The notes beneath the pieces were generated by a model that worked only from the letters and a program-made list of their open reading frames with translations, did not search any database and was not told the origin of the DNA. Of a stretch of 37,587 bases of DNA, positions 12,439-16,467 are shown piece after piece. Origin of the DNA: Bacillota bacterium (GTDB taxonomy: Bacteria > Chloroflexota > Dormibacteria > Dormibacterales > Dormibacteraceae); NCBI GenBank assembly GCA_021323605.1, contig JAJPKS010000078.1:1-37587 (forward strand), in the 5' to 3' direction. Within the stretch, counting starts at the first letter, position 1, and every line of letters begins with the position of its first letter. A program made the translations under genes and the position numbers.

Positions 12439-13251
12439 TCATCCCCGCACGCCCTCGCCGCGACCCCTCCCGCCCCCGGCCTCGGCGGGGCGACCCCCGG
12501 GCGCGCCGCGCCGACGCGGCCGCCCGGAGTGGTCCCAGTGCAGGCCGCATTCCTTGACCTGGTCTCGCTCCCACCACCAGCGTCCGGCCCGGGGGTCCTC
12601 CCCGGGCTGCACCGGCCGCGTGCAGGGGGCGCAGCCGATGGACGGGTAGCCGCGGTCGTGGAGGGGGTGATAGGGCACCTGGTGCCGGCGGACGTAGTCC
12701 CAGACCTGGTCCGACGTCCAGGCCGCGAGCGGGGCCAGCTTGGCGATCCCGCCATGGCCCTCGTCCAGGGCCACCACCGGGGTCGCCGCCCGGGTCGGCG
12801 ACTGGTCCCGCCGCAGGCCGGTCACCCAGGCGTCGCAGCCGCGCAGCGCCCGGGCCAGGGGCCGGCTCTTGCGGACCTCGCAGCACCGGAGCCGGAGCTC
12901 GGGCGAACGGTAGAAGAGGTTGACGCCGTGGCGACCGACCATCTCCGCCACCTCCCCCGGGTCCGGCGCCACCACCCTGACCCGCACCGGGTAGCGCCGC
13001 TGGAAGGCGTCGATGACCTCGTGCGTCTCAGGGGGGAGCCGGCCGGTGTCAAGGGTGATCACCTCGACCTGGTCCCGGAGCCGGCAGGCCATGTCGATGA
13101 GCACCGAGGACTCGACCTGGAAGCTGGCTACGATCGCCACCCGCGGGAACCGCGCGTAGGCGCGGGCCAGGATCTCCTCGGGTTCGGCCCCGGCCAGCTC
13201 GGCCCGGAGGCGTTCGATCTCGGTCCGGTCGAGGCCCGGCGGGGTGGCCAT
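12439..13251 (-). CDS. cysH: Assimilatory APS reductase ([4Fe-4S] type; thioredoxin-dependent adenylylsulfate reductase)
   Basis: FPRVAIVASFQVESSVLIDMA, LDTGRLPPETHEVIDAF, RCCEVRKSRPL, WVTGLRRDQSPTRA, GCAPCTRPV and KECGLH. The CC plus CxxC cysteines indicate the Fe-S APS-reductase class. Confidence 0.9.
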   Translation of the reverse strand: MATPPGLDRTEIERLRAELAGAEPEEILARAYARFPRVAIVASFQVESSVLIDMACRLRDQVEVITLDTGRLPPETHEVIDAFQRRYPVRVRVVAPDPGEVAEMVGRHGVNLFYRSPELRLRCCEVRKSRPLARALRGCDAWVTGLRRDQSPTRAATPVVALDEGHGGIAKLAPLAAWTSDQVWDYVRRHQVPYHPLHDRGYPSIGCAPCTRPVQPGEDPRAGRWWWERDQVKECGLHWDHSGRPRRRGAPGGRPAEAGGGRGRGEGVRG

Positions 13252-13253
13252 GG

Positions 13254-14987
13254 CTACGCCCCCCTGCCGCTCGGGACGGCGGCGAAGCGATCGGAGAGGG
13301 CCTCCACGCCGACCCGGTGGCACCAGTCCCCGAAGCGCTCCCCCGGCCGTCGTTCGTCGCGGAAGGCGGCGAGCACGGGGCGCAGCCGGTGCGGGATCTC
13401 GTCCAGGGGCACGTTGCGGGCGAAGAGGCGGTTCAGGCGCGTGCCCTCGAAGTCGCCGCCCAGGAAGACGTCGTACTTTCCCAGCGTCGTGCCCACGAAG
13501 CCGACGTCCCCCAGATAGGGACGAGCGCAGCCGTTGGGGCAGCCGGTCATCCGGTAGCTGATCCGTTCGCGCTCCAGCCCCAGCTCGGCCACCATGGCCT
13601 CGATCCGCCGGATCAAGCCCGGCAGCGCTCGCTCGGACTCGGCCACGGCCAGCCCGCAGGTGGGGAGGGCAGGGCAGGCCATGGCGTGCCGGAGGGTGTT
13701 GGAGAGCTCCTCGCTGAGCGGCACGCCGTGGGCGCGGAGGGTGCGCTCAACCTCCTGGCGTGCCCCCGGCTCCAGCCCGGCCAGGATCACGTTCTGCTGG
13801 GGGGTGAGGTAGAGCGTCGGCCGGAGTTCATCGACCAGCCGGCGCAGGGCGGTGCGCAGCCGGCGTTCCGCGACGTCGGCGATGCGGCCGTTCTCGACGT
13901 AGAGGCCGTAGAAGCAACCGCCGTCGCCCTGCTCGTGCCATCCCAGGTGGTCGTTCATCGCCATCCGGCGCACGGGCCGGAACTCCTCCAGGCGGAAGCC
14001 GGCCCGATCCTCCACCTGGTGCCGGAACCAGTCGACGCCCCGTTCGTGCAGGAGGTACTTGAGCCGGGCGTGGCGACGGTCGGAGCGGTTGCCGAAGTCG
14101 CGCTGGGTCGTGACCACGGCCCGGCACACCTCCACCGCCCGCTCGGGGGGCACGAAGCCCAGGGGCACGGCCACGGCGGGAAAGGTGTCGGGCTTGTTGG
14201 CCGTGCGTCCGAGGCTCCCTCCCACCAGCACGTCGAGGCCGGCCAGCCCGCCCTCGGGCGAGCGCAGGGCGATCAGGGCCAGGTCGTTGGCGTAGACGTC
14301 GACGCAGTTGTCTTCCTCCAGGGCGATGCCGGTCTTGAACTTCCGGGGCAGGTACCGGTCGCCGTAGAGGGGTTCGGTCTCCCGCCCCGAGGCGACCAGC
14401 CGGTCGTCGATCCAGATCTCGTGATAGGCGCGAGTGGCCGGGGTGAGCGCGCCCACCAGCTGCCGGAGCAGGGCTCCCACCTCCTCCCGGAGCCGGTCCC
14501 CGAGCGGGGCGGGACAGCACATGATGTTCCGCTCCTGGTCGCCGCATCCGCCCAGCGTGGTCATCAGGGCCTGGTTGATGGCCCGGATCGCCGTCCGGAG
14601 GTCACGCTTCAGGACCCCGTGCAGCTGGAAGTCCTGACGGGTGGTGACGCGGATGGTCCCGTTGCCCCAGCGCTCCGCGATCTCGTCGTGGGCCAGGTAG
14701 CCCTCGGGGCTCACCCGTCCGCCGGGGATGCGGGTGCGGACCATCATCACGTAGTGCTTGCCGCCGCCGCTGGCCCGGGCCGCCCGGCGCCGGTCGCGGT
14801 CGTCCTGCTGGTAGACGCCGTGGAACTTCAACACCTGGACCGCCTCCTCGGTGAAGGCGGGGGTGTCCTGCTCCAGCTCCTCGCGGAGGGTGCCCCGCAG
14901 GTGGTTGCTGGCGGCCTTGATGTGCTCGATGCGGGAGAGGCCCGCTCCGGTGCCGTTGCAGCCGCAGGTGGTGCACACGTGGCCCAC
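13254..14987 (-). CDS. Sulfite reductase, siroheme/[4Fe-4S] hemoprotein
   Basis: HIKAASNHLRGTL, KFHGVYQQDDRDRR, GYLAHDEIAERWGNGTIRVTTRQDFQLHGV, MACPALPTCGLAVAE and MTGCPNGCARPYLGDVGFVG. Alternative GTG start at 14976-14978 gives MCTTCGC.... Confidence 0.93.
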   Translation of the reverse strand: MGHVCTTCGCNGTGAGLSRIEHIKAASNHLRGTLREELEQDTPAFTEEAVQVLKFHGVYQQDDRDRRRAARASGGGKHYVMMVRTRIPGGRVSPEGYLAHDEIAERWGNGTIRVTTRQDFQLHGVLKRDLRTAIRAINQALMTTLGGCGDQERNIMCCPAPLGDRLREEVGALLRQLVGALTPATRAYHEIWIDDRLVASGRETEPLYGDRYLPRKFKTGIALEEDNCVDVYANDLALIALRSPEGGLAGLDVLVGGSLGRTANKPDTFPAVAVPLGFVPPERAVEVCRAVVTTQRDFGNRSDRRHARLKYLLHERGVDWFRHQVEDRAGFRLEEFRPVRRMAMNDHLGWHEQGDGGCFYGLYVENGRIADVAERRLRTALRRLVDELRPTLYLTPQQNVILAGLEPGARQEVERTLRAHGVPLSEELSNTLRHAMACPALPTCGLAVAESERALPGLIRRIEAMVAELGLERERISYRMTGCPNGCARPYLGDVGFVGTTLGKYDVFLGGDFEGTRLNRLFARNVPLDEIPHRLRPVLAAFRDERRPGERFGDWCHRVGVEALSDRFAAVPSGRGA

Positions 14988-14990
14988 CTC

Positions 14991-15173
14991 ACCTCCGCCC
15001 CGGGATGCCCCCGGGGGCGATCGTCGATGGGGAAACTGCCGGGCGGTGGGCGCCGGCCCTCACCGGTCCGAGGGCGGGCGTCCAGGCGAAGGGAAACAAG
15101 GTGATGATCTGCACCAGCGCACTCCTTTGCTGACCGATCTGACGTGGCGAGGTCGGCTGAGGGACGCGGAGGT
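14991..15173 (-). promoter_or_regulatory. Candidate translational attenuator: anti-SD (15166-15173, ACCTCCGC) paired with SD (14991-14998, GCGGAGGT)
   Basis: Exact 8-nt complementarity. The anti-SD starts 5 nt after the uORF stop codon. Confidence 0.5.
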
Positions 15174-15178
15174 CCCGG

Positions 15179-15268
15179 TCAGCTACACGCGCAGCTGGCG
15201 CAGCGCACGTAGTCCACCTCTCGACGGCGGGTCAAGAGCCAGCCCTCGGCGATGCGGACGGCGTGCAC
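15179..15268 (-). CDS. Candidate cysteine-rich leader peptide (uORF) of the sulfite reductase operon
   Basis: GTG-initiated 29 codons by hand: (M)HAVRIAEGWLLTRRREVDYVRCASCACS*. TACACT (-10-like) lies 7 nt upstream, so the mRNA may be leaderless. Positioned upstream of sulfite reductase with no intervening gene. Confidence 0.68.
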   Translation of the reverse strand: MHAVRIAEGWLLTRRREVDYVRCASCACS

Positions 15269-15275
15269 GCATCCC

Positions 15276-15281
15276 AGTGTA
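15276..15281 (-). promoter_or_regulatory. Predicted -10 box TACACT for leaderless uORF/sulfur operon transcript
   Basis: TANNNT with 7 nt to the GTG of the uORF. No convincing -35. Confidence 0.5.
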
Positions 15282-15321: not shown

Positions 15322-16467
15322 TCAGAAGGCCAGGTCCAGGGCTCGCCACTGGACGGTGAGCAGCGCCGCCAGCTCGCGAACGCGGTACCGCCAGCTCTCC
15401 GGAGCCTGCTCCCAGGCGAACTCCCCCGACATCAACCGGCCACTGGCCTCGAGGTCCTCCGGCACCACCAGCATGGCCTGGACCCCGGGCACGTGGGCGG
15501 CGAAGCGGTCCAGGTCCAGTTCGCTGCCGTGCCCCGGCATCCGGTTGACGACCAGGATGGTGGGCCGGCCGGTGTGACCCAGGGTGGCGAAGGCCTCGGC
15601 CACCACGCTGGCCGTCGAGGGCTCCGCGTCGCTGACCAGGAGGACCTGGTCGCAGGCACCGAGGGCGGCGCGGGCGGCGCGCTCGTGCAGCCCGGTCCCG
15701 CAGTCCAGGAGGATCACCCCCACCAGGTCCTGGAGCCGGCGGATGACCCGGGCGTAGACCGTCTGGTCGAGCCGGGCCATGCGCTCCGGGTCGATCGGCG
15801 TGGGGGCCACCATCAACCCGTGCACGGCACGGCCCAGGGCGGCATCGAGCCGGGGGACCGTCAGCCGGGGATCCTCGAGCAGCGCCAGCAGATCGTCGAC
15901 GAACACATGGTGCGCCGGCACGAGCGCGCGGCCGAGCGAGCCGTAGTCGGGATTGCAGTCCACGGCGACGATCCGGTCCCGGCGGAGCATGGCGAGCAGG
16001 GTTCCCAGGAGGGCGGTCACCGTGGTCTTGCCCACGCCGCCCTTGGGGGAGACCACCGCCACCGTGGCGCAGCGCTGGAGCCGGGGCTCGACGATGGCTT
16101 CCTCCAGGCGCCGCAGGTAGTCACTGGCCTGCCAGGCGCGGCGGGCCCGCTCCACCGCCCCCGGTCGGCGCCGGTGGGCCAGGGCGGTGAGGCCGAGCGG
16201 TGCTCCCTCCGTGTCCGACACCGCCCCTCCGACGCTCCGGCCGAGCACGGGATCGGGCGGGGCGCCGCGCCGGCGCCCGAGGACGGCGGCGCCCAGGGCC
16301 TCCCCGACCCGCTCTCCCCAGCTCAGGCGCCGGGGCAGGAGCGCGTGGGTACGCGCCGAGGGAGGCAGGGGAGGACCGAGCGCGTTCCCCTCCCGCTCGT
16401 CGCTGGGCGTCCCCGCCGCCGGCTCGGTGAGCTCGGCGGGACCTGCCCCCGGATCCGTCCTTCCCAC
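15322..16467 (-). CDS. MinD/ParA-superfamily ATPase with N-terminal extension (CpaE/TadZ or ESX-associated-like)
   Basis: Deviant Walker A VAVVSPKGGVGKTTVTALLGTLL, AVDCNPDYGSLGRAL, VILLDCGTGLHERAARAALGACDQVLLV. Start uncertain. Confidence 0.82.
   Translation of the reverse strand: MGRTDPGAGPAELTEPAAGTPSDEREGNALGPPLPPSARTHALLPRRLSWGERVGEALGAAVLGRRRGAPPDPVLGRSVGGAVSDTEGAPLGLTALAHRRRPGAVERARRAWQASDYLRRLEEAIVEPRLQRCATVAVVSPKGGVGKTTVTALLGTLLAMLRRDRIVAVDCNPDYGSLGRALVPAHHVFVDDLLALLEDPRLTVPRLDAALGRAVHGLMVAPTPIDPERMARLDQTVYARVIRRLQDLVGVILLDCGTGLHERAARAALGACDQVLLVSDAEPSTASVVAEAFATLGHTGRPTILVVNRMPGHGSELDLDRFAAHVPGVQAMLVVPEDLEASGRLMSGEFAWEQAPESWRYRVRELAALLTVQWRALDLAF

Follow-up and report, generated by a model that had tools for sequence, protein, structure and literature searches.

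A candidate cysteine-responsive leader peptide upstream of the sulfite reductase operon in a Dormibacterota genome and related leaders before other sulfur-associated genes

Here we describe a 29-codon upstream open reading frame (uORF) that lies directly ahead of the genes for sulfite reductase (sir) and APS/PAPS reductase (cysH) in a 37,587-nt stretch of DNA (the window), and which probably attenuates translation of the sir–cysH operon in response to cysteine. An initial annotation of this DNA had proposed an element of that class, and the proposal is well supported by the conservation of the uORF, the recurrence of related leaders before sulfur genes, a −10-like box and the predicted RNA structure. 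The window comes from a Dormibacterota MAG rather than from an actinobacterium, and its nearest named sir homologues belong to Candidatus Dormibacterota/‘Chloroflexi’ soil MAGs; the finding would carry a form of control described in Actinobacteria, by cysteine-responsive leader peptides, into an uncultured lineage. The features of the locus, all on the minus strand, are as follows.

15276–15281, minus strand: −10-like box TACACT, 7 nt before the GTG of the uORF
15179–15268, minus strand: uORF encoding the 29-aa leader peptide (M)HAVRIAEGWLLTRRREVDYVRCASCACS, followed by TGA (start GTG 15268–15266, stop TGA 15181–15179), recognized from the sequence and the family profile
15203–15235, minus strand: conserved LTRRRxVDYxR core, uORF codons 12–22, with synonymous drift while the amino acids are held
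15185–15202, minus strand: Cys tract TGC GCC AGC TGC GCG TGT, codons 23–28, with Cys at codons 23, 26 and 28
15122–15128, minus strand: Shine-Dalgarno sequence (SD) AAAGGAG of a second short ORF (ORF2), placed where relatives have the conserved SD of their first gene
14989–15114, minus strand: ORF2, 41 codons, GTG start at 15114, product VQIITLFPFAWTPALGPVRAGAHRPAVSPSTIAPGGIPGRR, with its TGA just 5' of the sir start
14991–14998, minus strand: GCGGAGGT, the SD region of sir
13254–14987, minus strand: sir, assimilatory sulfite reductase (NF010029, E = 2.7e-219)
12439–13323, minus strand: cysH, APS/PAPS reductase, ORF as listed

The uORF is real, and both its GTG-initiated frame and the TACACT box exactly 7 nt ahead of it are found as the initial annotation had described them. 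That annotation also counted three Cys codons among the last six; three do lie near the stop, but within the last seven codons, with two in the last six. A TANNNT box stands 6–12 nt before an in-frame ATG or GTG in 44 of 51 leaders, compared with a mean of 3.7 and a maximum of 8 when the upstream block is shuffled. A box at such consistent spacing fits a leaderless or nearly leaderless mRNA, and the earlier leaderless reading may hold in this leaderless-like form. The spacing is 7 nt in the window, where transcription would be expected to start at the uORF start codon or a few nucleotides away, and 9–11 nt in most relatives, a distance equally compatible with a 5' UTR of 0–4 nt. An SD ahead of the uORF is present in few leaders, and no match to a sigma-70 −35 element was found upstream of the window uORF. 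A co-directional gene ends upstream of the uORF at 15322, and on any transcript reading through from that gene the uORF would be non-leaderless. By eye, a SigR/SigH-promoter-like GGAAT-N18-GTT is present about 30 nt 5' of the uORF in five relatives (L011, L016, L020, L021, L024), with none seen in the window.

A search of 42 genomes from the GTDB family, the window's own among them, found sir homologues in 25, and all 25 loci carry the uORF upstream of the gene. Its commonest form has the consensus LTRRRxIDYxRCASCFCS; three loci (G040, G041, G019) carry the variant LTRRRVIDFxxKTxCSCx and another (G026) carries LTRRRALDFGRLTRCACR. Across the 11-codon core of the 21 main-type sir leaders, window included, there are 764 synonymous and 304 non-synonymous pairwise differences, counts that are not independent and serve as description. 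Since random mutation in the core would give a ratio of 31:68, the codon comparison indicates that the leader peptide is under selection at the amino-acid level. The seven-codon Cys tract (CASCxCS) has zero synonymous differences in the same 21 leaders, changing only at the x position. The initial annotation had suggested looking for a uORF in homologous loci with conserved Cys codons amid synonymous drift; the uORF is present at all 25 loci of the family, and the drift is found in the core, with none in the Cys tract. In four Dormibacterota MAGs (L036, L039, L042, L044), variant uORFs of the type LTRR[FL]WLD[WF]G... with fewer Cys codons stand upstream of sir, and these may be a different or degenerate sensor.

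The likeness to actinobacterial leader peptides to which the initial annotation had pointed is borne out by the best NCBIfam matches of the window peptide, NF042933 (leader_Ms5788A; 21 bits, E = 2e-4, against a cut-off of 45) and NF042934 (cis_reg_atten, putative leader peptide; 16.4 bits, E = 0.005, against a cut-off of 27). By these curated thresholds the uORF is a member of neither family. The two models match 18 of 20 and 16 of 20 family peptides, respectively, at E ≤ 10 (best 1e-5 and 1.2e-5), and share with the window peptide the pattern L-T-x-R-R-x-V/I-D-x-x-R...C. The most interesting point here is that simple Cys-codon sensing does not account for the amino-acid-level conservation of the LTRRRxIDYxR core. 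One refinement, which overlaps with the attenuator model, is that the nascent LTRRRxIDYxR segment joins in the pause in the manner of an arrest peptide, with the Cys codons as one input among others. The core is held at the amino-acid level, which codon sensing does not need, it would occupy the upper exit tunnel while the Cys codons are being read, and a similar core recurs in the two actinobacterial models; shared ancestry, or some other function of this segment, could explain the core as well, and we consider such participation rather unlikely. The conservation itself makes participation of the nascent peptide directly testable.

Related leaders are not confined to sir. A search of the window's own genome with a family profile built from 22 peptides, the window peptide among them, found four places, each before a sulfur-associated gene: sir (E = 3.4e-14, for the window uORF, whose peptide is part of the profile alignment), tauE–cysC (E = 7.6e-10), a beta-carbonic anhydrase (E = 2.5e-5) and the siroheme synthase gene cysG (E = 1e-4). 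Class-wide, 44 of 110 genomes have a match at E ≤ 0.05, and those inspected mostly precede sir, carbonic anhydrase, cysE or a rhodanese-type sulfurtransferase; weak matches without a sulfur-gene neighbour (e.g. G256 C30) were left out. Leaders before carbonic anhydrase occur in more than 10 other Dormibacterota genomes and those before cysE in G193, G257 and probably G248, while the rhodanese assignment depends on a 70-residue piece scoring 21.6 bits, just below the Pfam cut-off of 22.2. Beyond the class, the profile gave weak (E > 6e-4) and unconvincing matches in the rest of the phylum, and a sample of 26 sir-bearing genomes of the phylum yielded no further clear Cys-rich uORF outside Dormibacterota. 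Related leaders on several sulfur genes would form a cysteine regulon read by ribosomes in Dormibacterota, placing six kinds of sulfur-associated genes in one likely regulon. We also put forward, tentatively and as something we would not yet bet on, the fuller proposal of a Dormibacterota-wide regulon of this kind in which the Cys codons double as an anti-Shine-Dalgarno, the LTRRRxIDYxR nascent segment aids pausing, and the peptide family shared with Actinobacteria acts as a combined nascent-chain and codon sensor.

How such a leader might act on the genes behind it admits more than one answer. A leader peptide could govern an intrinsic or Rho-dependent terminator rather than access to the ribosome-binding site (RBS), and a T run does follow a hairpin in some relatives (e.g. 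L022, CCACGCCCGGCGTGGTTTTTT), while Rho has been suggested for the cys leaders of Mycobacterium (PMC1262725). Most relatives lack the T run, however, and no terminator formed of a hairpin and T run was found between 15400 and 14960 in the window, such that control by transcription attenuation appears improbable here. The alternative is control of translation, for which the predicted fold of the window leader supplies the following elements.

15187–15203, minus strand: 5' strand of stem P0, the Cys-codon tract (15203–15187), paired with 15124–15109
15109–15124, minus strand: 3' strand of P0, running from the last part of the ORF2 SD through the spacer to the GTG start (pair probabilities >0.3)
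15177–15183, minus strand: 5' strand of stem P1, GCTGACC, which contains the uORF stop codon
15129–15135, minus strand: 3' strand of P1, GGTCAGC, directly 5' of the ORF2 SD
15161–15176, minus strand: hairpin P2, GGGAC-CTCCGC-GTCCC, whose loop contains most of ACCTCCGC

In the model that we favour, the mRNA would begin at or very near the uORF. With Cys-tRNA in good supply, ribosomes would clear the uORF and leave its Cys-codon tract free to fold (P0) onto the first downstream ORF at its SD and start codon; there, stacked on the stop-codon stem P1, the tract would block initiation. Under cysteine shortage, a ribosome held up at Cys codon 23, 26 or 28 would cover the tract, P0 could not form and the RBS would open; in the window, the translation of ORF2 thus made possible would feed the sir RBS beside the ORF2 stop codon. 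The Cys codons would then be sensor and anti-SD at once. The same logic, a pause in a leader ORF that opens a downstream RBS, operates in the ermC and ermB leaders, where the signal is an antibiotic; here it would be charged Cys-tRNA. For Mycobacterium smegmatis, too, relief of RBS sequestration by a stalled ribosome has reportedly been proposed, at several loci per genome.

Several computed properties of the leaders bear on this model. In the predicted window fold P0 stacks on P1 and the ORF2 GTG has an unpaired probability of about 0; the 97-nt element has a z-score of −2.77, with 1 of 200 shuffles equally stable. When ribosome footprints were forced on the full 299-nt window leader, the freed strands re-paired elsewhere and the ORF2 GTG stayed closed, after which truncated leaders were used to model the cost of opening the RBS. 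Over 43 leaders this cost falls from 8.8 kcal/mol with the tract to 5.8–6.1 once a modelled ribosome removes it, whereas removing an equal stretch further upstream leaves it at 8.5 to 8.8. When the final 27 nt of the uORF are shuffled, the mean drops from 8.8 to 6.9 kcal/mol (43 leaders, Wilcoxon p = 1.3e-5) and the window value from 10.9 to 4.6 (0 of 30 shuffles as strong); removal of the tract in the window lowers the cost from 10.9 to 7.4–8.3 kcal/mol, yet leaves the ORF2 GTG largely paired in the model. As the leaders are related, neither these 43-leader comparisons nor the permutation tests that follow are fully independent. Each leader's own partner outperforms those of other leaders both for the pairing of the Cys region with the SD (permutation p = 0.015), as in TGCTCCTG/CAGGAGCA of L004, L005 and L160 or TGCCTC/GAGGCA of the carbonic anhydrase leaders, and for the P1 strands (permutation p = 0.00015, 20 groups). 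Other comparisons gave no signal: the complementarity of Cys region and SD is not significant against a synonymous-codon null (mean p = 0.47), so that codon choice alone carries none; a MAFFT/RNAalifold alignment of 20 sir leaders, weakly informative with its misaligned loops, held no pair changed on both sides; and the tract had no effect on RBS opening in the rhodanese leaders and several carbonic anhydrase leaders. By these models the Cys-codon tract has the best support as the strand that would sequester the RBS of the first downstream ORF, at its SD and start codon.

The first RBS after the window uORF is that of ORF2, a frame absent from the initial annotation, and not that of sir. Behind the corresponding RBS, relatives have sir itself, a tauE permease gene (L009, L014, L025) or, in L006, a 19-codon ORF whose first codons resemble the tauE of relatives; by its position and by analogy with this last ORF, ORF2, which has no Pfam match, may be a tauE remnant. 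Because the ORF2 stop region overlaps the sir RBS, ORF2 is probably translationally coupled to sir. The sir frame itself could start at GTG 14987 or, by comparison with the MC..CGC starts of G018, L006 and L009, at GTG 14978, and cysH likely starts at ATG 13251, just past the sir stop. Read from 14978, the window Sir has an N-terminal C-x-x-C-G-C motif that is also present in some relatives (L006, L009, L117; the forms seen are CTTCGC, CKACGC, CKVCGC and CTSCGC) and absent in others, a possible metal or thiol site. In L117 (G018, of the same genus), the sir frame is apparently broken, with a 137-residue fragment followed in another frame by siroheme-synthase-like sequence, which reflects either a pseudogene or an assembly error.

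The position of ORF2 also bears on the wiring drawn in the initial annotation, in which ACCTCCGC, 5 nt past the uORF stop, acts as an anti-SD that sequesters the SD of sir until a stalled ribosome releases it. The exact 8-nt complementarity to GCGGAGGT is there as described (15173–15166 against 14998–14991), and most of ACCTCCGC lies largely unpaired in the P2 loop, from which it could conceivably reach the sir SD in a loop contact. Against this, about 13% of shuffled leaders would be expected to hold such a match, CCTCC soon after the stop occurs in few other leaders, the pairing has a probability of 0.0 in the ensemble (a calculation that covers nested pairs, not pseudoknots), and the target is the second RBS, behind ORF2. 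On chance level, rarity in relatives and nested probability we reject this pairing as the main wiring; such a role for ACCTCCGC seems very improbable, and a chance match to a second, downstream SD is a plausible account of it. We give hardly any credence to the idea that the uORF merely codes for a small protein, such as a Cys-containing metal-binding peptide, with no regulatory role: the conservation of the core at the amino-acid level suits it, but the uORF lies directly 5' of sulfur-associated genes in the inspected loci, its end is tied to RNA structure and it resembles leader-peptide families.

The attenuator reading gains from comparison with known systems, in that the uORF is short, has several Cys codons close to its stop and immediately precedes a sulfur operon. 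For M. smegmatis, cysteine attenuation by leaderless Cys-codon ORFs has been reported (Canestrari et al., 2020, Mol Microbiol; summarised in PMC9031893). The mycobacterial leaders share with ours a leaderless-like short ORF with Cys codons at its end, before sulfur or cysteine operons; they differ in that ours, known from computation, are found in Dormibacterota and have spaced (CxxCxC) rather than contiguous Cys codons, with the extra short ORF2 between leader and sir in the window. Seliverstov et al. (2005, PMC1262725) predicted cys leader peptides in Mycobacterium, Propionibacterium and Bifidobacterium; these too are short ORFs that precede cys operons, have their Cys codons close to the stop and lack an obvious terminator, but they are from Actinobacteria only and have runs of Cys, and no conserved hairpin was found for them. 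Rfam gave no matches above the gathering score in the window, and sequence and literature searches, the latter of partial coverage, found no earlier report outside Actinobacteria. Thus the kind of mechanism is already known, from Ms5788A-type leaders and mycobacterial cysteine attenuators, while its occurrence in Dormibacterota and the set of several genes there appear to be new.

Elsewhere in Chloroflexota, other Cys-rich uORFs stand before sir. In Caldilineaceae and a LacPavin MAG there are unrelated uORFs of about 50 codons whose 3' ends are true polycysteine runs (e.g. ...PISCFCCTSCCTSCCC and ...SLCSCTCFCCTSFTCCTCCC) and whose stops lie 221 nt (L061), 330 nt (L088) and 256 nt (L065) from sir; the start of some is SD-like. 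Further Chloroflexota sir loci that were sampled showed none. At another locus (L087), a short uORF, MSTPVCCMCCLTHTRGLDRMCA, about 253 nt before sir has a GC hairpin with a T run behind it (AGCCCCGGCTAGCTAGCCGGGGCTTTTTA), an arrangement that, from its sequence, looks like a classical Cys transcription attenuator.
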